Shown here: positions 2,975 to 57,159 of the stretch, one piece after another
Layout of the letters: each line of letters opens with the position of its first letter
Position numbering within the stretch: position 1 is the first letter of the stretch
NCBI GenBank assembly: GCA_027604705.1
Contig: JADHYV010000016.1
Span: forward strand, 124,001-188,000
DNA from: Allomyces arbusculus
Taxonomy: Eukaryota; Blastocladiomycota; Blastocladiomycetes; Blastocladiales; Blastocladiaceae
Direction of reading: 5' to 3'
DNA: 64,000 nucleotides
The notes under the pieces: model-generated
What the model was told of the DNA's origin: nothing
Databases searched by the model: none
The model's input: the letters and a program-made list of their open reading frames with translations, nothing else
Translations under genes and position numbers: made by a program

Positions 2975-3799
2975 GGTCGTGACGGGTACAGGGTGCGGTT
3001 ATCGCGCGCAATCAATGGATGCGGGGGGCCGCAGCGGCCAGGCAGTGGTGGTCAACGATGGACACGGCAGTCTCGAGCGTGAGCCGCTTGTTGGTACGGG
3101 CGTTGGGAGGTCGGGAGGATGCGTGAGCACAGTGGTCGGTATGGTCACCAGTGGTCGCAAGGGTCGTTGATGTTGTTGCTGAAAGATGGTCGTGTTGCTT
3201 GTTGGCGTGTCACTGGCCGGTGGATGGGAGGTCTGGGCGCGTGGGCAGGCGCGGGTGTCAAGGTCGCGTGGGAGCGTTCCTCCGTGGTTCGTGCGAGCAA
3301 TGCGCGGGGTTGGGTGCACTTGCGCACGGTCGCACTCCCGAGGGACTTGTTCGCGCGCGAAGTGGTTGTCGTGATCAGCGTCGGTGCCTTGTTGGTTGGT
3401 GGTGGTGGTGGGATGGTGGTGGAGGTCGTTGGCCATTCTGTTTGCACGTTGCGCCAGCGCCCACACAACACAACACAACAAAGCACACGAGTCACAACAG
3501 CCTTTCCGTGGCGAAACGGGCCCAGAGAGTTCGGCAACAAAGCCAGAGCCGGTGCGCCGCCTGCTCATTCCTCGGCGTGATCCTTCCATGGTCAACCTGC
3601 CCACCGCGACTGGCGACGAGCCCGATTGTGGCGGCAGCAGCACCGCCAACGCTCAGCGGCGGGTCTGCGCGCGGCGGTTGGTTAAGGAGGAGTGTATGTG
3701 GGGCGTGTAGGAGCTCGCCGTGCCGACTGCATGCGCCGCGAGATTCGGCGACGGTCGGGCACAATGCATGGAGGTCTTCTGCTCATGCCGCTGCCCTTT
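2975..3799. other. Intergenic, GC-rich, no gene seen
   Basis: This stretch lies upstream of the minus-strand coiled-coil gene. It contains short GT-rich runs near 3400 (tggtggtggtggtgg) and an ACAAC-rich run near 3465. Open frames on both strands are short, mutually overlapping and compositionally biased, and I recognise no protein in them. It probably includes the promoter of the coiled-coil gene. Confidence 0.4.
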
Positions 3800-4990
3800 G
3801 ATTTGGTCCCTGGCAACGCGCAACGTGCTCTCGCGTGACTATCGCGCGCTCTGAGCTGCAGGTGTTCACCGCACGCCCCAAGCACGAAATTTACGCTCAG
3901 ATTCCACCCACCAAGCACGATGTGCTCCAACGCCACTACCACCAAGCTCTTGTTGCCACTGTTCGTGGAGAAGATGTTGATCTTATGACACCAAGGAGCC
4001 AACTGGCAGCGGCTGCTTCAGTCCCACCCCTGCAAGTCTCCAGTTCCCTCATTCTGTCCCTTCTGTTTGCATCTTTCTCACCTGGCAAGCACTTCAAGAC
4101 TGGCAAGCACACATTGCAGTTGCTTGGCAAGCACCTCAAGGTTTGCTGGCATGTGTCAGCAGTCTTGCTTGTCAAGGTTGGCAGCATCCAAAAGTTGTCA
4201 TGGGCAAGGACAGCCATACACAGGGAGTGTGGCTGTGCCTGGTGGTAGTCAGTTCCAAGCACAACACCATTCTTGTCCTCTCTTTGATGTATGTTTGGGC
4301 CAATGACTTGTTTGAAATGAGCCAAGCAGTTGGATGACATGACAATCCCAAGAACTGACTTGGTTGTCTCCTTGTTTTGTTTAGATTTGGACTGTGCATC
4401 TGCATGTGTCACCTTGTTGTGTCAATGTGTTCCCTGCTCTTTTCTGTCTCAGGTCCATGGCAGGGCTCAAGTGGTGACAATCCAGTCACAGTTTGTGCTC
4501 AATGCATGGACCAAACACAGCAGCTGATTCTATCAAGATGGCCATTTTGCTTGTGTGTGCAAGGTATTTGGCAGGTCCAAGCACAAGATGGCAATCAGCA
4601 TGGTATCAGTGCTGCTGTTGAGCTGCCAAGTTGCAAGCATTTCCAGGTCCATGGTCTAGGGCATGGGGGTCATCATGGCATGGACAGCAAGTAGCCACAG
4701 TTGCTTGTGATCGTGTGTGTGTGCAACTTGGCCAAGGTGTTCTGGCTGCTGGGTTCTTGCACAAGCTCATGCTCATTGAGTCAATTTTCCTCAACCAGTC
4801 CTTTGCCAAGATAAACCCTGCATTCGTGTCCTCGTCCTTCACCCATTTTTCCATCATCCAAGAAGTCACAAGACCTGTGATCTAGCCCCTACTTCATTGA
4901 AGAGTTGGTGGTCATTCAAGGCAGCAATCACTTGACTAGACTGTGTGTCGTGGTGCACTGCAGAGCAACATGACCTGGCGTGCACAAGGG
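3800..4990. repeat. AT-richer island with repeated tggcaagcac words
   Basis: Base composition and word use change sharply here against the GC-rich surroundings. The decamer tggcaagcac occurs at 4083, 4101 and 4125, and related words (ccaagcac, cttggcaa, ggtccatgg) recur through the island. Small open frames exist on both strands but none resembles a protein family I know. It could be an eroded transposable element or a species-specific noncoding repeat. Similar AT-richer stretches appear near 10.5-11.0, 32.1-32.5 and 49.3-50.6 kb. Confidence 0.4.
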
Positions 4991-6758
4991 CCTCCATGTG
5001 CGCAGGTTAGCGGGGAGTGTGCTGTTTTTGAAAGCGGTCTTTTGTCGTTCAGGGCAGATTGAAGCGTGCATTTGTTATGAGCATGGATGTCCCTCAGTAT
5101 TTGACGCCTCAAGCCGCCTGCTCATTTCGCGTTCCGATTCTCGGCCCGCTGTTTGCGCACCGATTCTACGCAACGCTGTGAAGCCGCCCGTCATTGGCGC
5201 GCTGATCGTGACGCTGCCGATGGTTCGCTCGCCTTTGCTTCAGCAAACCCGGCACCTCGACCGCGGAACGCGATCGGAAGGGCTGGGGTGAACTGTGCCG
5301 ATGCTGTGGGTCCGGGATCTGACCTTCTGTGCACGATGGGATGAACGTGAACAACCGCAACTGCGGGCGCTCCAGATCGATCGCGAGAGCCCGCAGTCCA
5401 CCTCCACCCTCACTCAACGAAACTCGTCGTGAACAAGGACCGCCATGGCCCCAACGGCGGCGAACAGCAAGGGCAACCCCTGTGCCGCTGCTGCCATGCG
5501 CGCACGGCGGCCGTCTGACGAGCCCCGCCGAGTGCAACGGCACACGCGATGGCAGGTCGCACCAGCTCGCCCTTGTCAACTCTGGGCGAGCTAATTGGTC
5601 CCGGCCCGCCAAGTATGCCAGCTGGTTCGCCAACGGCGCGCTCGCGTGCAAGCATCGGCCGACTGCACCCCCGTCGCCCTTGTTGGTTGCATGGAGTTGC
5701 ACCGTTGCTCACTCAGCCCGCTGTCGACCAACACGCTGCGTTCGGCCACAGTGCCTGCAACGAACGGTTCGAAACAATGACGAGCGCACACTGCGCCACG
5801 GTGACGCGCGTGAGGTGGTCCAGCCAACACGCCTCGATCGCGGCGCGAGTGAATGGCCAACGCGACCCATCGTGCATGAATCGCACCGCCAGGCACATCG
5901 ACCTGCGCGGCGTAGCACGGTACGGTGACCAACCCGACGTTCAGCCGGGTGGTGACCGGACCCACCACGCGCGGGCGCGATCAATATGGGCCAACCAACG
6001 TCGATGCCAGTTCGCGGACGGCCACATCCACCACCCCGGTCGTGGTCGCGCCACAGTCGCGCGTGCGTCGACGGCGACCGGTCTCGGTGACGATCATTAC
6101 GGCGCGAGGGCCAGCCGGGCGCAGTACCTCCTCGTCGTGTTCGCTCGCTTTGTCCTCTCACCCACAGTGCTATAAGAACACTGCGCCCGACGTCGTTGAC
6201 ATGCGCGTCCTTGTCCCACCACCACCACGACGGACCTCTTGCACGACCACCCCCACCACGAACCGACCACGAACCGCTGCCCAGTCCGTGCGATCCCACG
6301 CGGCTCCCACAGATCTTACGTACAACGGAACGAACGAACGGAACGAGCGAGCGTGCACTGCCCGCCGTTCTTGCAGCCCTTCCACATCCGCGATCGACCA
6401 CAGGCCGGTCGGCTTTCCTGTTTCCGAGCCGTAATTGTTTGGGCGGCGTGCTGCCGTGGACGTTCTGCCGGAGCGCCACCCTTTCCTGGCCTGCTTGCTC
6501 CACGTCCCCACCCGCTCCCACTCGCTGTCCCTTCCGCGCTTGCGTGTACCGCCCAGGCAACCCACGACGACGACGGTGCCGGCCGGCTGCACCCCGCACC
6601 TGCTCTGCGCCCATCCTCCTTCTTGAGCGCGCGCCGCCCCCGCTGCTGCAGCTGCACGCTTGCTCTCGCTCGCTCGACAGCGATAACGACAACGACCGCA
6701 AGAAAGCGGCTGCTTCTCGCTGCTATCCGCCTTCGTGTCTGCACGACAGGCCGACATT
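4991..6758. other. Intergenic, no supported gene
   Basis: Long open frames on both strands (for example minus 5709-6701) are out-of-phase readings of GC-rich DNA rich in Arg, His, Pro and Ser with no recognisable domain. The final few hundred bases presumably hold the promoter and 5' UTR of the gene starting at 6759. Confidence 0.35.
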
Positions 6759-8882
6759 ATGTCCGCCCCGTCCACTTCATCGCGTTCCGCCAACATGCCG
6801 GCGGCACCGACGCCGCTCCCAGTGCTGCTGCCGACCACCGCCGCCGCGCCGCCGACCACGACGCCCGGGTTCGAGTCGCGCCGCCGCCGCCGCCCGCGCT
6901 TTGAGCGCATCCACGCCGACGACCGCGCCGACCCAGACGCACTCGCTGACCGGCTCGCGTTGCTCTGGACCAAGTACGTCTCGGACGTGCTCCTGCACAA
7001 CTACGCCGTCCTGCCCGCCGACGTGGTGCAGGGGCTCGAGGCCGTCGAGCCCGTCCTGCGCGGGTCCAGCACTCCGGGATGTCATCGTGAGGAAGCGATC
7101 GCCAGTTTGGGTGGCGCCAGCAGCTGCTGCGGTGCTTCTCGACTGGCCCACGCCCTGCACCACGACCACCGCCACGCCGACGACCATGACGACGATCTCG
7201 CGTCAACCGCGGCCGTCTGGCCAACGTTGCGCTCCCCACGGCCCGCCGCACTCGCGCTCGGCGCACATTCAGTGCGGCTCACGCGCAAGCCATCCACGTC
7301 GAGCAGCCGGCGGGCCGCGGCGCCCCCCGGCACGCCGCGACCGCTCCACCGTGCCGCCTCACCGGCCCTCTCCGCCGTGCCGACGCGCCACCCTGCCCCG
7401 ACCGACCACCCCCATCTCCCCGCCGCACGCATCTGCCGCGCGTCCCCCGCACCGCGCCGCAGTATTGTTGGTGGCGGGATCCGGGACGCGGCCGCTGTCG
7501 CGGGCGGTGCACGGCTCGCGCGACGCGGTGGTGATCCGGCCTACCACGCGACGTTGCGGCTCGCGCAACTGCGGCTCAAGCACTTGGTGGCCGCGATTGT
7601 CGCACCGCTACTCGTCAAGCTCGAGCACATGGACCCGGCGTCGCGCCCGCTCTTGCGCATTCTCCTCGCGCGGCACCGCGACCAGATCCCGGTCCTTCTC
7701 CTCGAACCCGTCGCGCGGCGCATGCGCCGGACCTCACTCCTGTCGGCGACCGAATCGGTGCGGTCGTCGACGAGTTCGTGGTCCCTGGATGAGGACGAGG
7801 AAAAGGAGGTGATGCACGTCTCTGCAACACTCGACTTGGCCGCGAGCCCGCTCGAAAAGCTGGCCGTACTCTTGCGGCACGAAATGGATACGGCCGCGCG
7901 GGCACTACACGCGGCGTTGCTCGGCGCGCGGCTGGCCGCACCGCCGCTGCAGGCGTCGTACGACCTGGTCGTGCGTTCCGTACGGCTGTTTGCGTATATC
8001 CAGCGCGCCGACCCGACGCTCAAGTGGGTCCTGTCGGATCCGGGCACGTCTGTCGACGCGCGCGCCATGGACACAGTCACGGATCCGTGCGACCATGCCC
8101 GTTCCGCACATCAGGACGCGGTGGTGCTGTTCTCGGTTGGCCCGGGGCTCGTGCGCGAGGACGAGACGGGCGCGATCGTCGCCGTGATCCGGCGCGAGCG
8201 GGTCGTGATTGGCCGTCGGCTCCCGGCCTCGTGTTGCGGGACGTCGCTCTCCTCGACCACCTCCGACTCCTGGGTCGACGACGAGACCGACTCGGAACTC
8301 ACCTGGTCCGACCGGTCGCGGTCCTCGTCGGCCGCGCCAAGCCCCGCACCGTCCTCCTCATCTCCGCGGCTGCACCGCTCAATCGCGACCCCCGGCAGCC
8401 CGGGCACCCTGTGCCTGCCCTCCCTGCGCGACACAGCACGCACGCGTCCCACATCGGCGCCCGGCGGCAGTCCACGGCTCGTTCTCGCGTCGCTCGCGCG
8501 AATCGCGTCGGTCCCGTCGCTCCGTGGCGGCGACGTCTCGGGCGCGCAGCTGCTGCGGCACACGCAGTCGACGCCGGCTATGGCGCACCGCACGTCGGCA
8601 CTCGTGCACTTGCTGCGCGGCGAGGGCGCGTCCCCCGTGACCTCGGCATTCGGACTCGTGTCGCCGCCAGCGACGCCGCCGCAGGTCGGGTCGCCGCTGC
8701 GCAGTGGTGGCGCGAGTCCGCAGATCGCAGCGCGGCATCGCCGGAACCCGTCGAACGGGAGCAGTTTGCTCGCGGGCGCGGCATTTGTGCCGCACGAGGA
8801 TGAGGTAGGGATGGCGGCGCCGCCGCGCCGGCAGGCAAAAGTGTCGTCAGTGTGCGCGGTGCTCGATATGCCGCTCGAGTGA
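6759..8882 (+). CDS. Unrecognised Ser/Ala/Arg-rich protein
   Basis: Open frame of 707 codons from the ATG at 6759 to the TGA at 8880-8882; an in-frame GTG eight codons upstream is not a plausible eukaryotic start. Two regions look folded: residues ~55-100 (ALLWTKYVSDVLLHNYAVLP) and ~260-425, a helix-rich block with LRLAQLRLKHLVAAIVAPLL and LRHEMDTAARALHAALLGA. The region between them (about 7065-7530) is rich in His, Arg and Pro, is open in a second frame too, and may conceal an intron or two. The C-terminal third is Ser/Pro-rich and looks disordered. I do not recognise the family. It ends convergent with TFIIF-beta. Confidence 0.5.
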   Translation: MSAPSTSSRSANMPAAPTPLPVLLPTTAAAPPTTTPGFESRRRRRPRFERIHADDRADPDALADRLALLWTKYVSDVLLHNYAVLPADVVQGLEAVEPVLRGSSTPGCHREEAIASLGGASSCCGASRLAHALHHDHRHADDHDDDLASTAAVWPTLRSPRPAALALGAHSVRLTRKPSTSSSRRAAAPPGTPRPLHRAASPALSAVPTRHPAPTDHPHLPAARICRASPAPRRSIVGGGIRDAAAVAGGARLARRGGDPAYHATLRLAQLRLKHLVAAIVAPLLVKLEHMDPASRPLLRILLARHRDQIPVLLLEPVARRMRRTSLLSATESVRSSTSSWSLDEDEEKEVMHVSATLDLAASPLEKLAVLLRHEMDTAARALHAALLGARLAAPPLQASYDLVVRSVRLFAYIQRADPTLKWVLSDPGTSVDARAMDTVTDPCDHARSAHQDAVVLFSVGPGLVREDETGAIVAVIRRERVVIGRRLPASCCGTSLSSTTSDSWVDDETDSELTWSDRSRSSSAAPSPAPSSSSPRLHRSIATPGSPGTLCLPSLRDTARTRPTSAPGGSPRLVLASLARIASVPSLRGGDVSGAQLLRHTQSTPAMAHRTSALVHLLRGEGASPVTSAFGLVSPPATPPQVGSPLRSGGASPQIAARHRRNPSNGSSLLAGAAFVPHEDEVGMAAPPRRQAKVSSVCAVLDMPLE

Positions 8883-17376: not shown

Positions 17377-19191
<1,815 letters not shown>

Positions 19192-45873: not shown

Positions 45874-48800
45874 ATGTCGTTCTCGGCGCACAACCGCGGC
45901 TACGCGCCGCCGCCGCAGCAAATGTACCCGTCGCAGGCCGCGCCCAACGCCTACGCGCCCGCGCCGCCAATGGCCTCGTCGTCGTCGGGCTACGAAATGC
46001 ACCATTACGCGCACCAGCAACAGCAACAGCAGCAGCAGTACTACTCGCCGCCGCAACCGCCACCCAACATGCCGCCGCAAATGCCTGGCGCGTACGGCGG
46101 CAACGGCAATGGCATGAAGACGATTCGCCGCGCCGTGGCCGTGCGCGACGGGAAACTCGTCGTCGACTTGGACGTGTCGCCCGAACTGGTCGACGCGACC
46201 AAGGTCAAGTACACGGTCGGCGAAGAGTTTACCAAGTTGCGTTACACGGCGGCCACGTGCGACCCAAACGATTTTGCTTCGCAGGGTTACCAGCTACGGC
46301 AGTCTCTCTACGGGCGCAAGACTGAGCTGTACGTTTTGTTCTTGGTGTTGATGGTGTGGCGGCGGCTGCGGTGGATCCGGTGCGAAACTGACATTGGTTG
46401 ATGTGGTAGCTTGTACGTATCTGAACTCGACACACTTCTCTCTTTCTTGCCCGATTCGCAATGGCTGACGGTGTCCCAAACATCTCCACCCGTTCCTTTC
46501 GCGCCCTTGCAGCATGTACGTCCCGTCTCTTCCTTTGATCGCGCTCATCCGGCCAACCCGCTCACGACCCGATCCGCTTCGTAGCGTCATCACGATGTAC
46601 AACGAAGACTCGATCCTGTTCACGCGCACGATGCAGGCCATCAACAAGAACATTCAGCACATGTGCAATAAGAAGCAGGGTCCCTTTGCCGGCGAAGACG
46701 GGTGGCAAAAGATTGTCGTGTGCATTGTCTCGGACGGCCGGCAAAAGATCAACAAGGACGTGCTCACGGTGCTCTCGACCATGGGCTGCTACCAAGAAGG
46801 CGTGTGCGTGCCGAAATTTATGAACAAGGACACGTCGGCGCACATTTTCGAGTTTACGACGCAGATGGCCGTCACCGACAAGATGGAGATCAAGACGCAC
46901 CGCGACGGCGGCGTCGTGCCCGTGCAGATCTTGTTTTGTCTCAAGGAGAAGAACGCCAAGGTCCGGCTCGAGTTTGTGTCGGTGTTTGCGTGAGTCGCGC
47001 GCTAACGTGTTCAGCCGCCGGTGTCCAGAAAATTAACTCGCACCGGTGGTTCTTTAACGCATTTGGGCCTGTGCTCAACCCGGGTGTCTGCGTCCTCGTC
47101 GATGTCGGGACCAAACCGCGCCGCGAGGCCATCTACCGGTTCGTCTGCCCCCCGTTCAATATCCCTCACCGACTCCCAAATTTGACCGCTCTTCACCCGC
47201 TCCCCACCCAGTCTCTGGCGCACATTCGACACAAACCCGCAAGTTGGCGGCGCGTGCGGTGAAATTGCCGTCGAGTACGACTCGATCTTCCACTTGATCA
47301 AGCCCATCATCGCCGCGCAAAACTTCGAGTACAAGATGTCGAACATTCTCGACAAGCCGCTCGAGTCGTGGGCCGGGTACATTTCCGTGTTGCCGGGCGC
47401 ATTCTCGGCGTACCGGTACCGCGCGCTGCAGGGGCGCCCGCTCGAGCAGTACTTCAAGGGCGAGAAACTGCACGACTCGGGCGACGTGTTTGCGGCCAAC
47501 ATGTACCTGGCCGAGGACCGCATCTTGTGCTTTGAGCTCGTGGCGAAGAAGAACGAGGGATGGGTGCTCTAGTATGTGCGCTTTGGTGGCCTCGCGGTTT
47601 TTGGTTATGACACTCACCTCCGATCCTCTCCTCGCGTCCCAGCTACGAAAAGGACTCTCAGGCCATTACGGATGTGCCAGACAACTTCCCCGAGTTCATC
47701 TCGCAGCGTCGTCGCTGGCTCAACGGGTCCACGTTTGCCCTGCTCTATGCGCTCGGCAACGTGCTGCAAATCTATACGTCGGGCCAGTCGTTCTTGCGCA
47801 TGCTCGTGTTCTCGCTCGAGTATCTGTACATGTTTTTGAATTTCGGTGTGTTTTTGATTTCCTGATGCGCTTGGAAACCGTCCTGGGGTCCGTGGGACTG
47901 ATTTCCATCGTCGTTCACAGTCTTTTCGTACTTTTCGCTCGCCAACTTTTACCTGGCCTACCAGCATGTATTCCCTCGTGCCTCCGCGTGTTGTGGAGGT
48001 CGAAAGACTAACGCTCAACGCGCTGGCGTGCTTTTTGCGGGCTGTTTTTTCTAGCTTCGTATGTGTTTTCTTGTTTTTCTGCGTGCTTCAAGCCTCATGA
48101 GACTAACGCATGCCGCGTCCCCTCCGTTATCTAGCTCGTCGACGACTTCACCACGCTCATCAGCACGCCTGTCCTCGACTTGCAGCCGACCGTGGTCATC
48201 TGGGGCGTGCCGCACTCGCAGACCATCCGGACCGTCCTCTCATCGATCCTGGCCGTCTTCCGCTCGGTCTACATTCTCTCGCTGTGCACGACGTTTATTG
48301 CCGCGCTCGGCAACCGCCCGCAGGCCGCCAAGTACATTTACCTGTTTGCGATCAACCTCTTTTCGTGCGTGACCATCTTCATGCTCTACATGATCATCGT
48401 CTCGCTCGCCGCCGACTGGCCGGCATTACGCGAGGGCATGCAGGACCCGCTCGGCTCGGCCGCGGGGCTCCGGTTCCTGCAAACGTCGATCGCGTTGGGG
48501 TCGACGTACGGCATGTACATTGTCTCGTCGGTGCTCTACCGCGAGCCGTGGCACATGATTACGTGTTTCGTGCAGTACTTGCTTCTGCTGCCGTCTTACG
48601 TCAACGGTATGACCCTCGTTTCCGTCGTGTCCGCCGCCCGCAACTGACAATTCACCGCGCGACCGTAGTCCTGCAAATCTACGCCTACTGCAACATTTCT
48701 GATGTGACGTGGGGCACCAAGGGCGACAACGGCCCGGCCACGGGAGCTGGGGTGACCGTCAAGAAGGGTGAGGACGGGCAAGAAATTGCCGACCTCGAGC

Positions 48801-49242
48801 TTCCGTCGCAGCACCCGGCCGACGTGCAGCTCGCCTACCAGCAGCGGTACACGGCCCTGCAGAACCTGAAACTCGCGCTCGACCGCGGCGAGGCCAAGGC
48901 CAAGCAGAACTTGTCGTCGGACGATTTGTTCCGCCAGTTCCGCACGATTTGGCTGTTGATTTGGATCGTCTTGGTACATTTCAACGCGCGGTGCTTGCAC
49001 TGAGGGTGATTGGAACTGACCGATCTGCGTGTGTGATGTAGAACGGTGGTTTGGTCTCGATCCTGATCTCGCCCGCGGCCGTCGGCGTCGAGGACGGTGC
49101 GTCGTTGCGCAAGACGTACCTGACGGGCCTCTTTATTGCCGTGGCCGCGTTCTCGCTGATTCGGTTTGCCGGGTCCGTCGGGTACCTCGTCTCGCGCGGG
49201 CTGTGCGCGCCGTTCAAGTCGCGCGGGAATGCCGGGCAATAG
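45874..49242 (+). CDS. CHS: Chitin synthase (division 1 type)
   Basis: Preferred exons: 45874-46328, 46410-46412, 46513-46515, 46585-46960, 47029-47138, 47212-47571, 47643-47845, 47921-47963, 48055-48058, 48135-48606, 48669-48973 and 49042-49242, giving 844 residues. The Gln/Pro-rich N-terminus is followed by [16 protein letters not shown] (start of the GT2 domain), [42 protein letters not shown] and the signature QRRRWLNGS (about 457-465), then several membrane segments and a C-terminal pair. The enzyme polymerises UDP-GlcNAc into chitin at the plasma membrane. FI in TELFIV is supplied by two separate 3-nt exons. The 4-nt exon at 48055 with a GC donor is an alternative to one GT-AG intron 47968-48134, which would give YQHLVDD instead of YHFLVDD. 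Confidence 0.95.
46410..46412 (+). other. 3-nt microexon A (CTT) of chitin synthase
   Basis: Flanked by ...TGTGGTAG| and |GTACGTATC. The preceding intron (46329-46409, 81 nt) has a CTGAC branch-like motif about 20 nt before the acceptor. Joining CT|CTT|C gives Leu-Phe. Confidence 0.8.
46513..46515 (+). other. 3-nt microexon B (CAT) of chitin synthase
   Basis: Flanked by ...CCCTTGCAG| and |GTACGTCCC. The preceding intron (46413-46512, 100 nt) contains CTGAC; the following one (46516-46584, 69 nt) ends CTTCGTAG. With microexon A it restores Phe-Ile in [13 protein letters not shown]. Confidence 0.8.
48055..48058 (+). other. Candidate 4-nt microexon (CTTC) of chitin synthase
   Basis: Flanked by TTTTTTCTAG| and |GTATGTGTTT, with ACTAAC branch motifs before this acceptor and before the next one at 48134. 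It only keeps frame if the upstream donor is GC (CA|GCATGT at 47964); skipping it with donor GTATTC at 47968 also keeps frame. Confidence 0.45.
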
Positions 49243-50669: not shown

Positions 50670-53600
50670 ATGACTACGTTCCTGCTGCCGCTCGTGCACT
50701 GGCGGCCTCACCCACTGGAAAATGACGTGACCTGCCTGGCGCTGGCGCCTGCGCCGACCGGGGTAGACCCGGCAGAGTCGGTCCTGCACCGCCCTGGCCA
50801 CTTGGTCGTTGCTGGAACCGAGCGAGGGAACGTGTGGGTGTTCCGCGTGCGCGACGGTGACGATGCTGTGCCCTGTGTACGCGATGCACGCTTGAACGCG
50901 TCGGATCACAAGCAAACGGTCGGCTGATTGAGGGTGTCGGGTATCTAGCTCGCTCCGCATTTTGTCCTGACAGGTCATACGACACCCGTGACGTGCATTG
51001 CGTTTGCACGGCAGACGGCCGACGTCGGCGCGGCAGGCGAAGAGCGTGTCGTCTTGACGGCGAGCGAGGACGGGTATGGACTGTTCGGTTCGGCGTCTTG
51101 CCATGCAGCTGGACACTGATGGACAAGTTGCGCGTTGGATGTAGGCTAATGTGTTTATGGGACCTGAGCGACGGCCACTGCCTGAATACAGCATCGACGG
51201 GATTTCCGGGCACGCCACGCGCACTCTCCGTGAGCCCGTGCGGGACCGTCGCTTTTCTCGGCGGCGAGGGCGCGCGGCTACTTGTCTTGGACGGGCAGAC
51301 GCTCGAGGTGCGCCTATCTCTCTCGATCGCGCGTGCTTGAAAGGAACACATGCATGCTCATTCGGGCCGCACACGTAGGTCTTGGCCAGCTCGTCTGAGG
51401 GTAACGACTGGACCGTGCAGGTCCATTGCCTCTCGCAGGCCGCCGACCAAAAAGTTTACCTGCTGGTTTTGACGCCAACGTGTCTTTCGCAGCTCGTCTA
51501 CGACGTGACGCAACAGACGATTGTGCCCGTCTTTATGATGCCGGTCGCCGAGCAGGTAGATGATCCGGCGGCCGAGGGCGGGTGGCTCGAAATGAGCGTC
51601 AGTGCCGACAAGATTGCGGTTGTTGGGAGGAAGGCGGTCATGGTACGCCGGGCATTTGCTTTTCTCGCGTTTTTTATGGCGACAACTGACGCGCGCTGGT
51701 TTGGCAGCTGTTCGACTGGTCGATTGGCAAGATTCAGCGCGTTGGGACCATCTACGTGCCCAAGGGCGAGGCCGAGTGGGCGTCGGGCCAGTTCTTGTCG
51801 GACGATATCTTGGTCTTGTCGTCAAGGGTGCGTGCGCTTTTATGACCGGCTTCTGCTGGTGGCGATGCTTGCTGACGGTGTTTACTTTAGTTCAACAATC
51901 ACTACTTCTACGACATCCGCACATCACTGAATGCACCTCTTTCCAAAAGCGAATCGCAACGTATGTACTAAGTGGTGAAGCGTGTCTGATCTCACTCTTT
52001 CCACTTTTTTTCGCCGCATCCTAACATTCATTTGTGTCAATTCCAGTGAACCATGCTGCTCTCACAATCGCTGTCGGGAATCGTCTCCTCTCGTCCTTCC
52101 GCGAAGACTTTGAAGTCGTCAAGTGGACACGAAACGACCAAGAACCGCCCTCTGTCTCCCCGACCACGTGCTTCTCCTTCACTGATTTCTGGCCAACCTG
52201 CACCGACGACTCACCACCGTCCGCCACTGACGTGACCCCAAACGCCGGACCCAATCCGACCGCAAAAGACCCCTTCACCTGCCAGCTCCTCGTGAGCGGA
52301 CGGATCGTGCTGGCCGGCACGAGCGCCGGCTACTTGCAGTGGCACCCGCTCGACCAAATCCTCACGTCCGCATCCACCCCGACCCCACCCGCGCGAATTC
52401 ACGCGCACCACGGGCCCGTGACGTGTCTCGCCGCCGTGCCCATCGCGGGCGGCGGCGCGTCGCAAGTCGTCGCAACGGGCGGGCACGACACGACCGTGCG
52501 CCTGTGGGCCGTGGCCGATACCGACTCCGGGTCGTTCACGCTCACCGCGCTGCACACGTTCCGGCACGGGATCGCGCCCGTCGTGCGGATCGTGCCCGGG
52601 CCTGACCCTGGGTCCATCGTGACGATCGCTGCCGACCACGCCGTGGCCGTGCTTGACGTCGCGTCGCGCGCACTCGTCCTGCATTTGCCCGGTCCCGCGG
52701 CGCCGCCGGGGGCCTGCGCACCGTCGCATATCGCGTGGCGCGACGAGTACGTGCTCGTTGTCTACGCGGCTGCAGGGCTCATTTATGTCTGGGACCGAGT
52801 CGCCGGCGCGCTCGAGCGTGTGCTAAGGGCCGCGCAGGTTGGGGATCTCGTTGAGTGGGCTGCGGCGTGCGATAAGTGGCTGGATTTGGCGAGTGCTGGT
52901 GCGAGTGGCGAGTTCGGGAATGCGCCGACGGCGACGGTGCCTGCGGCCAAGTTACCCGCCGTCTCGCTGCGATCGCTCGAGTCAAGCCATGTGCTGGTCG
53001 TGAACCTGAAGCGCGTCGTTGCGGAGGGGGCAAGGGATATGCCGCTTGCGCGCGCGCTCGTGAACGTACTGCTGCAGCGTGGGGTCGTGCCGGAGCTAGA
53101 TGCGCTGATTGCCGGTGACGCCAACGGGAACAGTGGGAGCAATGACGATATCGTGGCGGTTGTGGTCAAGGAGGGGGTGACGCTCGGCGTCCGTGGGTAC
53201 GCTTTTCTGACCAACCTCGCTGGTACCCTCGAAGACTCTGAATTGACAAGGCCATAATAGGGCTAATGGGAACCTGTCGCTCATGACGCCGCGTCAGCAG
53301 GGCGGGTACGCTGTGTCCCCGACTGTCACGTCGATGCGTCTTCTCGCGCTCTACCTAGTGACGCGCGCCGTGCTGCCCACACCGCCGTCGGTGTCCGTAA
53401 CCGCGTCCATGGATCGTTTGGCGCCCACACCGCCAGAAACTGCTCCCGCTGTGACCCCAACTGATCCTTCCCCGGGTACATCGCCGGACACGCCGCGCGG
53501 CACGCGTCGCAGCCAACTGGGTCCGGCCGTCGACGACGACCCGGCACACCAACTGCTCGCGCGGTACTTGCACTCATTGCCTGACGCAGTTGGTCCCGCC

Positions 53601-55070
53601 TACTGCCCACCTTCCCTCGCGTTCCTCGCACGGTACTGGCGCGACTCTCTCCCGGCGCTGCAGCAAGGCGCGCGGCGCCTGCTCGTCTGGTCGGTGCAAA
53701 ACATGCCGCGCGAACGGCAAGCCGCGGTCGTGCACTACTGGCACAGCCAGCTGCCCGTTGTGAGTGCCGGTACAGGACTCACCAAGACGCACGCGCGCGC
53801 GACTGTCATTTCGGCGGTGCTCGCGTGCGACGTGCCGCAGGTTGTCTCGCTCGCCATGGCCAAGGACGTGGCGCTCTCTTTGGTCCTGTGGATGGGCGAG
53901 GACGAAGGTGCTGGCGTCATGTACCGCCAGAGCGCGATCGAGCTGCTTGGCCGCGGGTTCGCGCGGTGGGAGCCGCACTTGAATGCGGGCGCCGTCGTGC
54001 GCACGCTGATTTGGCTCGGGATGCAGTTGCCTCCCGCAGGGCTCGCGCAGGGGGCGCCGCCTGCTGCAGCTGTTGCGTCGGCGAGTACGACAACAACGCA
54101 CGCGAGTGCTTCGTCGGCGACTCCGGCGCCCGGTGGGGCTAATCTGGCGGTCGCGGCGGTCGCTCGCCAGACGCTGCTTGCGATCGCGCACCATAACCTG
54201 GCGCTCGTCGTGCAGACGATTGTCACGGAACTCGAGCACACGTTCCAGCGCGCAGCACCGACGGCTGCGCACATCCCGCCGGGCGCGACGGCGGCCGCGG
54301 CGGCCATGGGCGGAGCAGTGGCCGGGGGTCTCGCGAATGCCGCGGCCGTAGCCACCGCTAACGTGCCCGGTCCCGGCGGGAAACCGTCGGTCTTGCCCGC
54401 GGGCGCCGGATCGGCCGCAGGGATGGCAGCGGCCGTCGCTGATAAGATTCTCGTGCTCCGGTTTGTCTCGTACCTGGTCTACAAGGCGGCCGCGGCGCTC
54501 GCGGCCACGGGGCTTGCCGCGCGGCTCGCGGAAGCGGTCGTGCACGTGCTTGATCCGGCGACGCCGTTGCGCGAGGCCCTGACGACGCCTGCGACGGCGA
54601 CGCTGTACGACTTGGTGCGGCGGTTCCCGGGGATCGCGTTTCACGGCGCGCAGCAGCGGTTGGCAGTCGGTGGGCCTGACGGCCGATTGGTGGTGTGGGA
54701 CTTGCGCACGGCGGCAAGGATTCATGTTGTCGACGCGGCGCACCCGCCGGCATGCCCCGTCACGGCCGTCGCGTTCTCGATTGACGGCAAGGCCGTCGTG
54801 TCGTACTCGCTCGCCGATCACGCCGTCAAAGTCTGGCAAGCGCCGTCGGGGCTGTTGTTCCTAATGGGCGCTGCCGTCTCGCAACTCGGTGTGGGCGGCG
54901 GGGGTGGGGGTGGCGGGCACTCGGGCGCGGCGATGCGCACGACCAAGTTGATTGGGCACCCTGTGCCAGCCGAGACGAGACCGCTTGCCGTGCGGCTTGC
55001 GGTCGTCGAGCAGGGGCCGAGCATCGAGGTGGGTACGGAGGGCGGGAAGGTGACGCGGTATCCGCTGTGA
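50670..55070 (+). CDS. WDR7 / rabconnectin-3 beta-like WD40 protein
   Basis: Exons: 50670 to 50922 (or 50856), 50974-51073, 51145-51307, 51379-51642, 51708-51827, 51891-51960, 52047-53196 and 53261-55070; about 1309 residues. N-terminal WD repeats include GHTTPVTCIAF and MCLWDLSDGHC, close to MCLWDVSDGRC in human WDR7; a second propeller includes VATGGHDTTVRLW. The helical middle has LSLMTPRQQ and YRQSAIELLGRGFARWEP, matching the WDR7 block RRTAIDLIGRGFTVWEP, and the C-terminus closes with RLAVGGPDGRLVVWDLRTA. WDR7 partners DMXL/Rav1 proteins and regulates assembly of the V-ATPase on endosomes and vacuoles. The first intron is uncertain: frame requires either a GC donor at 50923 or a GT donor at 50857. 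Ala-rich linkers are lineage-specific. Confidence 0.85.
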
Positions 55071-55389
55071 GCATGGGTCTGTGTGGAGCGTTTTGGGGTT
55101 GAATACGGACCAGCATCGCTTCTGGACTGTGATCCTTGCTCGTTTGCTGAGAGGAATGCGCGTCTCGCACACGTCTCTCGCCGGGCCTGATTGAGGGCGC
55201 GGCGATCGCCAGCTGAACATGTCGGCCGGTGCAGCACAGTGCACCGCCAACAGGTCACCATCCCCTTTGGCCAACAAAAACTTGCAGTTCTCGGCCGAGC
55301 ACGCCATCAAGTGCAAGTCGTTGCATTCTCCTGCACTCTCGCGAAAGCCCAACGCCCACCTCCACCCGACGTATTGGCCAGCGAGCACC

Positions 55390-57159
55390 ATGCCACCCGC
55401 GACGACCAACCTCGCGCGCAACGTCTTGATGTGGTTCCGCCGCGACCTACGTCTTCATGACAATCCGGCCCTGCTATCGGCGCTTGCCCAACCTGACCGT
55501 ACCCCGGCCGCGCAGCAATTGTATCCTGGTACGTCAACAGCAGCGCATGCTTCACAAGCGAGTGCAGGATGAAGGTGACAAGTTCATTTCCGACTGTAAG
55601 TTTACTGCCTCGAAGTCCCAACGAAAAAGAAGTGCGGGAACCGTCGCTGGATCTTTCTGCTCGAATGCTTGCACGACCTTGATGCGAGCCTGCGCAAGCT
55701 CGGATCACGACTGTTTGTCGTGCGCGGGTTCGCGCACGACGTCCTCCCGCTGCTCGTGCAGCACTGGAACGTGTCGGAGCTCGCCGTCGGCGAGTGCCAC
55801 GAGCCGTTTGCCGTCGCGCGCGACGCAGATGTTGCGCAACGTATCGCGCCACTCGGCTGCGACTTCAAGGCGTTTCCGGGCCGCACGCTGTTCCACCCAC
55901 AGGACGTGCTCGCGCGCACAGGGAACGGCAAGGCACCGTTGACCATGGCCGCTTTTTCCAAGATTGTCGAACGGCTACCCGTTCCAGCACCCGTTGATGC
56001 GCCAACGTCGCTCCCATCCGTGGGCGGCGATGCCATTGCCGCCCTTCGGAATGGGCTCGACCCGGCCACGTTTGATGCCCTGGCCGGCCCGCAGGGCGAT
56101 TTTTCGGTCCCCACCATTGAACCCGACGGCACCGTGCCCGAGCTCCACCTGACGACACCGATCCCGGCCGACGAGCAGTCGCCGCACCGCGGCGGCGAGA
56201 CCGAGGCGCTGCGTCGGCTCGGCACTTACCTGAGCGACCACGCGCGCGTCACGCAATTTGAAAAGCCGAAAACAAGCCCGGCCGCGTTCTACCCCAACGC
56301 CGATACGACAATCCTGTCGCCTTACACGACTTACGGCGCGCTGTCGGTGCGCACGTTCCGCGCGGGCATCGACCGCGTGTATCGCGCGGCCAAGGGCAAG
56401 CATTCGAAACCGCCCGTCTCGCTCCTGGCGCAGCTGTACTGGCGCGAGTTTTTCATGACGGCCGGCGCGACCACGCCTAATTTCGAGCAAATGCGGGGGA
56501 ACCCGATTTGCTTGCAGGCCGAGTGGAAGTGCATTCCGGGCGAGACGTCTCACGAGTCGCACCCGGACGACTATGCGATGCTCGACGCATGGGCACAGGG
56601 CCGGACGGGGTACCCGTGGATTGATGCGATCATGGTGCAGTTGCGGCTCGAAGGATGGATGCATCATCTCGCGCGGCACAGCGTCGCGTGCTTTTTGACG
56701 CGTGGCGACCTATATATCTCGTGGGAGCGCGGCGCCGAAGTGTTCGAGGACCTGTTGCTCGACCACGAGTGGGCGCTAAATCGCGGCAATTGGATGTGGT
56801 TGTCGGCGTCGGCGTTCTTTCACCAGTACTTTCGCGTCTACTCGCCCGTCAAGTGGGGGCAGTCGTGGGACCCGGAGGGGGCGTTCATTCGTAAGTACTT
56901 GCCGGTCCTGCGCCAAATGCCCAAGCAGTATATTTACGAGCCGTGGAAGGCGCCGATCGCGGTTCAACGCGCGGCCGGGTGTGTCGTGGGCGTCGATTAC
57001 CCAAAGCGCATTGTCGACCACGATATAGTGGTCAAGGTCAACATGGCCAAGATGAAGGCGAGCCATGCCGCGCAGCGCGAGCAGGCGGCGATGAAGGATG
57101 GCGATAATGATGGCGGTCGCGATGGGACTCGGGGAAGAAGCCGAAACATGCGCGATTGA
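55390..57159 (+). CDS. Cryptochrome / (6-4) photolyase, animal type
   Basis: Preferred exons 55390-55528, 55575-55595 and 55616-57159 give 567 residues; an in-frame ATG at 55219 could add 57 residues. The N-terminal Rossmann domain starts LMWFRRDLRLHDNPALL; then CGNRRWIFLLECLHDLDASL and SRLFVVRG. The FAD domain has GGETEALRRL, LYWREFFMTA, TGYPWIDAIMVQLR, EGWMHHLARHSVACFLTRGD, DLYISWERG and WALNRGNWMWLSASAFFHQYF, all hallmarks of the animal CRY/(6-4) photolyase clade rather than CPD photolyase or CRY-DASH. The Asn in ALNRGN suits a photolyase-like flavin site. Repair of UV (6-4) products or light sensing are both possible. The exon 1-3 junctions need an unusually short (20-nt) intron. Confidence 0.9.

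Follow-up and report, generated by a model that had tools for sequence, protein, structure and literature searches.

A class-2 chitin synthase gene of Allomyces very probably contains two successive coding exons of three nucleotides

An Allomyces class-2 chitin synthase gene very probably carries two successive coding exons of only 3 nt each, CTT and CAT, which are flanked and separated by three phase-2 introns of ordinary size (Table 1). The gene was found in the window, i.e., the 64,000-nt stretch of A. arbusculus DNA that was analysed, which is part of a 431,275-base contig (C16) in a 25.9-Mb assembly from the phylum Blastocladiomycota. The original prediction had named the end of exon 1, a gap of 256 nt (46329-46584) before the exon encoding TMYNED, the two tiny exons, their GTACGT donors, and the sizes of the three introns, and all of these are where it placed them. 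The branch-like motifs are also as predicted: CTGAC is found at -22 in intron 1 and at -48 in intron 2, while intron 3 of the window gene has no CTRAY and instead has CTCAC at -24. Read across the junctions, CT-CTT-CAT-C gives Leu-Phe-Ile. Both exons are internal, lie between two introns with canonical GT-AG ends, and are far below the limit of about 30 nt used for microexons; their inclusion adds residues in frame, restoring the enzyme's motif in the window gene and TELFIVVTMYNED in a paralog.

Table 1. Predicted structure of the window gene around the sites discussed (positions are those of the window).
Feature	Position	Strand	Details
Class-2 chitin synthase gene	45874..49242	+	from start to stop codon; 12 exons within the aligned region
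Exon 1	45874..46328	+	ends ACT GAG CT
Intron 1	46329..46409	+	81 nt, phase 2, GTACGT..TAG
Microexon 1, CTT	46410..46412	+	AG/CTT/GTACGT; Phe codon split with neighbours, C/TT..
Intron 2	46413..46512	+	100 nt, phase 2, GTACGT..CAG
Microexon 2, CAT	46513..46515	+	AG/CAT/GTACGT
Intron 3	46516..46584	+	69 nt, phase 2, GTACGT..TAG
Exon with VITMYNED	46585..46960	+	starts C GTC ATC ACG; has ATC ACG ATG TAC AAC GAA GAC
GC-AG intron	47964..48054	+	91 nt, GCATGT..TAG, CTAAC motif
Likely third microexon, CTTC (4 nt)	48055..48058	+	spliced alignment, 15.6 bits
Intron after CTTC	48059..48134	+	76 nt, GTATGT..TAG, CTAAC motif

Assignment of the gene to the class-2 chitin synthases follows from a PF01644 match (C16:170595-170960, equivalent to window 46595-46960; E = 3.9e-44), from homologs that are called class 2, and from the motif TEL-4 residues-TMYNED, which the window gene has only when the microexons are included. 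The gene start was taken as the first ATG, together with the start of the deposited model P0001, and the spliced alignment covers 46117 onward. The homolog set consisted of the best 120 of 6,331 homologs (7,998 candidates scored), the closest being P0001 and P0002, at 98% and 82% identity and each bearing the name “Chitin synthase, class 2 [Allomyces javanicus]”, and then Blastocladiella. The motif is absent from five of these best 120 (P0006, P0008, P0009, P0021, and P0046). The spacing between TE[LIVM] and TMYNE is four residues in 113 of the 115 that bear the motif and two residues in just two of them, P0001 and P0002 of Allomyces. The solved chitin synthase 7xs6 reads TELMLVVTMYNED at this motif, with four residues between TEL and TMYNED, and a second solved chitin synthase, 7stl, also has four. 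As had been predicted, a direct join of exon 1 to the TMYNED exon therefore falls short by two residues that nearly all motif-bearing homologs keep.

We enumerated the splice chains that could bridge the window gap, requiring introns of at least 30 nt and allowing either GT-AG sites with one to three introns or GT/GC-AG sites with one to four. GT-AG sites alone yielded 339 chains (48 single-intron, 171 two-intron, and 120 three-intron chains; no four-intron chain), one of which has the right length and residues. When GC donors were admitted, the number of chains rose to 2647 (93, 735, 1273, and 546 with one to four introns), five of them of the right length and one fitting the motif. The single fitting chain is, in both enumerations, the proposed CTT/CAT chain; a different pair of junctions supplying the missing residues, named beforehand as an outcome that would contradict the microexons, is not found among the GT-AG or GC-AG chains of the window. 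Single 6-nt exons, shifted outer sites, and GC donors were all covered by the 2647 chains and none fits, and a narrower enumeration, allowing no more than one internal exon, gave no motif-restoring chain in the window gap.

Shuffled gaps, in which dinucleotides were preserved, the outer sites were fixed, and introns had to be at least 40 nt, gave a measure of how often such solutions arise by chance. With GT donors only, 353 of 20,000 window shuffles had a residue-compatible 6-nt solution, which in 9 shuffles took the form of two 3-nt exons; the corresponding counts for the paralog were 695 and 50 of 20,000. With GC donors admitted, there were 176 residue-compatible 6-nt solutions and 10 cases of two 3-nt exons among 5,000 window shuffles, and 584 and 59 among 5,000 shuffles of the paralog. 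The arrangement of CTT and CAT in the window is more than chance.

The same exons were recovered by spliced alignment. We used a profile-to-DNA aligner, written for this analysis, that allows exons of any length, with a profile of 118 homologs from which the Allomyces models P0001 and P0002 had been left out. Both 3-nt exons were called in the window gene and in the paralog at six of six intron penalties. Blocking the CTT acceptor of the window gene cost 17.7 bits, blocking the CAT acceptor 17.4 bits, and blocking both 28.1 bits; in the paralog, the loss of one acceptor cost 15.5 or 17.3 bits and the loss of both 23.0 bits. The real score was reached in none of 400 shuffles for either gene, and the best shuffled scores lay 12.9 bits (window) and 12.3 bits (paralog) below it. 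As a control, at least one exon no longer than 12 nt was called in 137/400 shuffled window gaps and 259/400 shuffled paralog gaps, so a single tiny-exon call by the aligner is weak evidence.

Comparison of intron positions in related chitin synthases, suggested along with the original prediction, revealed two matching 3-nt exons in a second class-2 gene of the same genome. This paralog, on contig C183, has TTT and CAT at the same codons and in the same phase, and reads GAGCT/gtgcgt..tcgtctctag/TTT/gtacga..cggtttgtag/CAT/gtatgt..tcatttttag/CGTCGTCACCATG, with introns of 77, 200, and 90 nt. The difference between CTT and TTT is silent, as CT-CTT-CAT-C and CT-TTT-CAT-C both encode Leu-Phe-Ile. 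Intron 1 of the paralog has no CTRAY motif, and in intron 2 CTRAY lies 48 nt from the end; like the missing or distant CTRAY in introns 3 and 2 of the window gene, these features count against the two-exon reading. Over 761 aligned residues the two proteins share 87% identity, and their genes differ at 123 of 317 fourfold sites (39%; distance about 0.55). Compared with shuffles, intron pairs 1, 2, and 3 of the two genes gave z values of -1.06, 2.92, and 1.66: pairs 1 and 3 have nothing clear in common, while pair 2 is weakly similar, such that the genes are not fully independent witnesses at intron 2. Within each of the two genes, similarities among introns 1-3 are weak (z 0.08 to 2.55), and we rejected the idea that these introns are recent copies of each other. 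Conservation of the two exons was thus found in the C183 paralog, and in A. macrogynus by protein model only.

That A. macrogynus model, AMAG_17738, was found by a search with only exon 1 of the window gene. It has 102 residues and ends GRKTELLYVSELERDFLFFFPNP; its end, TELLYVSELERDFLFFFPNP, is close to the 19 residues obtained by reading through the window sequence from CTT into intron 2. AMAG_17738 reads as if a gene predictor had taken intron 1 and the CTT acceptor and then overlooked the donor that follows 3 nt downstream. With exon 1 of the C183 gene as query, a search gave 11 matches, among which AMAG_17738 appeared again and no other named Allomyces fragments were present. With a unique splice chain in the window, the same exons in the paralog, and a consistent A. 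macrogynus model, the predicted restoration of TEL-4 residues-TMYNED by CTT and CAT is strongly supported. The deposited P0001 and P0002 correspond to the direct join and are two residues short, and public annotation appears to have missed the CTT and CAT exons. Two further models, P0009 (Catenaria) and P0008 (Coelomomyces), start exactly at MYNED, which fits a predictor unable to bridge the site; P0009 is, however, annotated as partial, and P0008 may owe its truncation to the 2,794-base contig on which it sits. Across the public Allomyces chitin synthase models P0001, P0002, and P0121, the protein is either two residues short or truncated at the microexon site.

If instead the gap were one 256-nt intron, Allomyces class-2 chitin synthases would truly lack the two residues, just as P0001 and P0002 were deposited, and its end sites, GTACGT and TAG, are of good quality. 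We nevertheless consider this improbable: it requires an identical two-residue loss from a near-invariant strand in both genes, it needs residue-compatible pairs of 3-nt exons to have arisen by chance in both (9 and 50 per 20,000 shuffles, as above), and it leaves the A. macrogynus model unexplained. The original prediction had gone further in the opposite direction, proposing that both exons are real and that skipping of either or both could give four protein forms differing in a core strand. Part of this stands, in that exons of 3 nt between phase-2 introns keep the frame in all combinations; regulated skipping itself is unsupported, the splice sites being ordinary for the genome and the residues being near-invariant (kept in 113/115), such that skipped forms would probably be impaired, and we give it as little credence as the single intron. 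The least probable reading, that the residues come from other splicing (through one exon of 6 nt, a displaced outer site, nesting of introns, or non-canonical sites), can point to the one 6-nt chain, TACACG, that the C183 gap also permits, but the residues of TACACG are outside the allowed set, none of the other window chains enumerated from GT-AG or GC-AG sites fits, and a nested intron would leave zero exon bases. A stwintron (nested twin intron) was rejected on the same ground, six exon bases being needed for the motif, and so was a zero-length recursive splice site, in which AG directly precedes GT, as 3 nt separate AG from GT at both places.

Taking CTT and CAT as two separate exons, we propose that both would be present in most or all of the mRNA, because they supply the near-invariant Phe and Ile of TELFIV, a stretch next to TMYNED that we take to be a core strand of the enzyme. 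Each intron would be recognised separately, across the intron, and such recognition should suffice because the sizes and sites match those of other introns in these genes. The 43 introns counted over six genes have a median of 78 nt, and their commonest donor is GTACGT (14/43); another 18 of 61 introns were excluded from the counts because they fell in poorly conserved parts with unreliable tiny exons. For instance, exons of 2, 4, and 5 nt called by the aligner in the N-terminal parts of the loci L014, L016, and L017 were rejected for this reason. Owing to the size of the splicing complex, an acceptor and a donor 3 nt apart should be too close for simultaneous binding; the introns would therefore be removed stepwise, one after another, with each removal fusing a 3-nt exon to a longer neighbour. 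A model in which both exons are included constitutively, through stepwise splicing, is more likely than one with four regulated isoforms. Splicing errors that skipped CTT or CAT would keep the frame and yield an enzyme one or two residues short in its core strand.

The surrounding stretch also differs among related genes. In the class-1 loci L015 and L016, an intron lies two bases beyond the third intron of the window gene (ATTG/gt..ag/TCGTG), and in L014 and L017 the region of the TELFIV strand has no intron; the stretch is therefore a hot spot for intron positions. The tiny exons may have originated through repeated gain or shifting of introns within this one small stretch of the gene family. 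Should mRNA confirm the structure, three introns would lie within three neighbouring codons, near the smallest imaginable layout of serial coding exons. Such a gene would be a natural model for the ordered removal of stacked introns where no exon is long enough for recognition, and would account for the public Allomyces models of this enzyme that are two residues short or broken.

A third microexon, CTTC, which the original prediction did not mention, is likely in the same gene, although its support is weaker than that for CTT and CAT. Its inclusion changes YLAYQHLVDDF, as in P0001, to YLAYHFLVDDF, and among seven relatives outside Allomyces the site reads HFL in five and has F in all seven. 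The real score was reached in 0/400 shuffles, although the best of them fell just 3 bits short, and some tiny exon was called in 93/400. The C183 paralog has one GC-AG intron at this site, after CACTTT, that aligns to the GC-AG intron of the window gene (z 4.57), as though, in the window gene, four bases of the exon had ended up on its downstream side. A 10-nt exon, ACTGCAACAT, encoding part of AYCNIS, is present in the class-1 paralog L017 (C87:61500-66500; reverse complement, 4366-4375).

It is possible, and we suggest it only tentatively, that serial exons of 3-4 nt are a general and largely hidden feature of Allomyces, perhaps of all Blastocladiomycota, in which stacked introns would be removed in order and single-codon exons joined faithfully, and that many gene models of the phylum would miss one or two residues, or be broken, at such exons. 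A motif scan of 559,004 bases (C42, the window, and three chitin synthase loci, each on both strands) gave no exons of 1-12 nt with a filter so strict that it missed the known pair as well. PRP8 was considered as a survey gene and dropped, its long open frames suggesting few introns. By eye, the PRP8 open frame in L040 (C7:82001-91500; 3636-7112) contains an insert running from CFGACQTLL to VVHN, before SGFEGS; the insert is presumably an intein.

There are precedents for single 3-nt exons and for runs of short exons; the tandem 3-nt pair would be the new element relative to the published work drawn on here. A 3-nt coding exon between introns is described in mouse Ncam and Drosophila TnT (PMC8042270) and in Drosophila homothorax (PMC7392893); these are single exons of animals, alternatively spliced in TnT and homothorax, whereas the Allomyces exons are two in a row, fungal, and probably constitutive. 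Human RPS24 also has a 3-nt exon among consecutive microexons (3, 18, and 22 bp), but its neighbours are longer and the exons are alternatively spliced, transcripts with the 3-bp exon reportedly lacking the 18-bp one (PMC12686416). Plant microexons, among them exons of 1 nt in APC11 and VPS55 and neighbouring exons of 5 and 12 nt in rice, resemble those of Allomyces in being conserved, tiny, overlooked by annotation, and in some cases adjacent; the cited cases do not include two serial 3-nt exons (PMC8831610). The 4-bp microexon of MPC1, said to be constitutively included (PMC9929638), is comparable in size to CTTC but is single and has a different neighbourhood. Series of short exons likewise characterise the micro-exon genes of Schistosoma (mostly multiples of three; PMC10526429), which differ in having long introns, secreted products, and exons mostly of 15 bp, with a range given as 6-81 bp in the body of the paper and 3-81 bp in its abstract. 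Among fungi, whose microexons have been called little studied, Trichoderma Xlr2 has one that was similarly overlooked by annotation but is 20 nt long, single, and glucose-regulated (PMC11121469). Stwintrons are fungal introns that lie close together and are excised in successive reactions (PMC9024468, PMC12403724, PMC5639578), as we suggest for the Allomyces introns; they are nested and leave zero exon bases, whereas in Allomyces 3 nt would remain each time. Among the matches listed for microexons and 3-nt exons, a scope outside which subscription papers and preprints fall, no title or abstract opening describes a tandem pair of 3-nt exons.

Elsewhere in the window, two open frames on the + strand were recognised by eye: one at 17678-19156 resembles a class III alcohol dehydrogenase, and one at 52025-57156 resembles a cryptochrome or photolyase.
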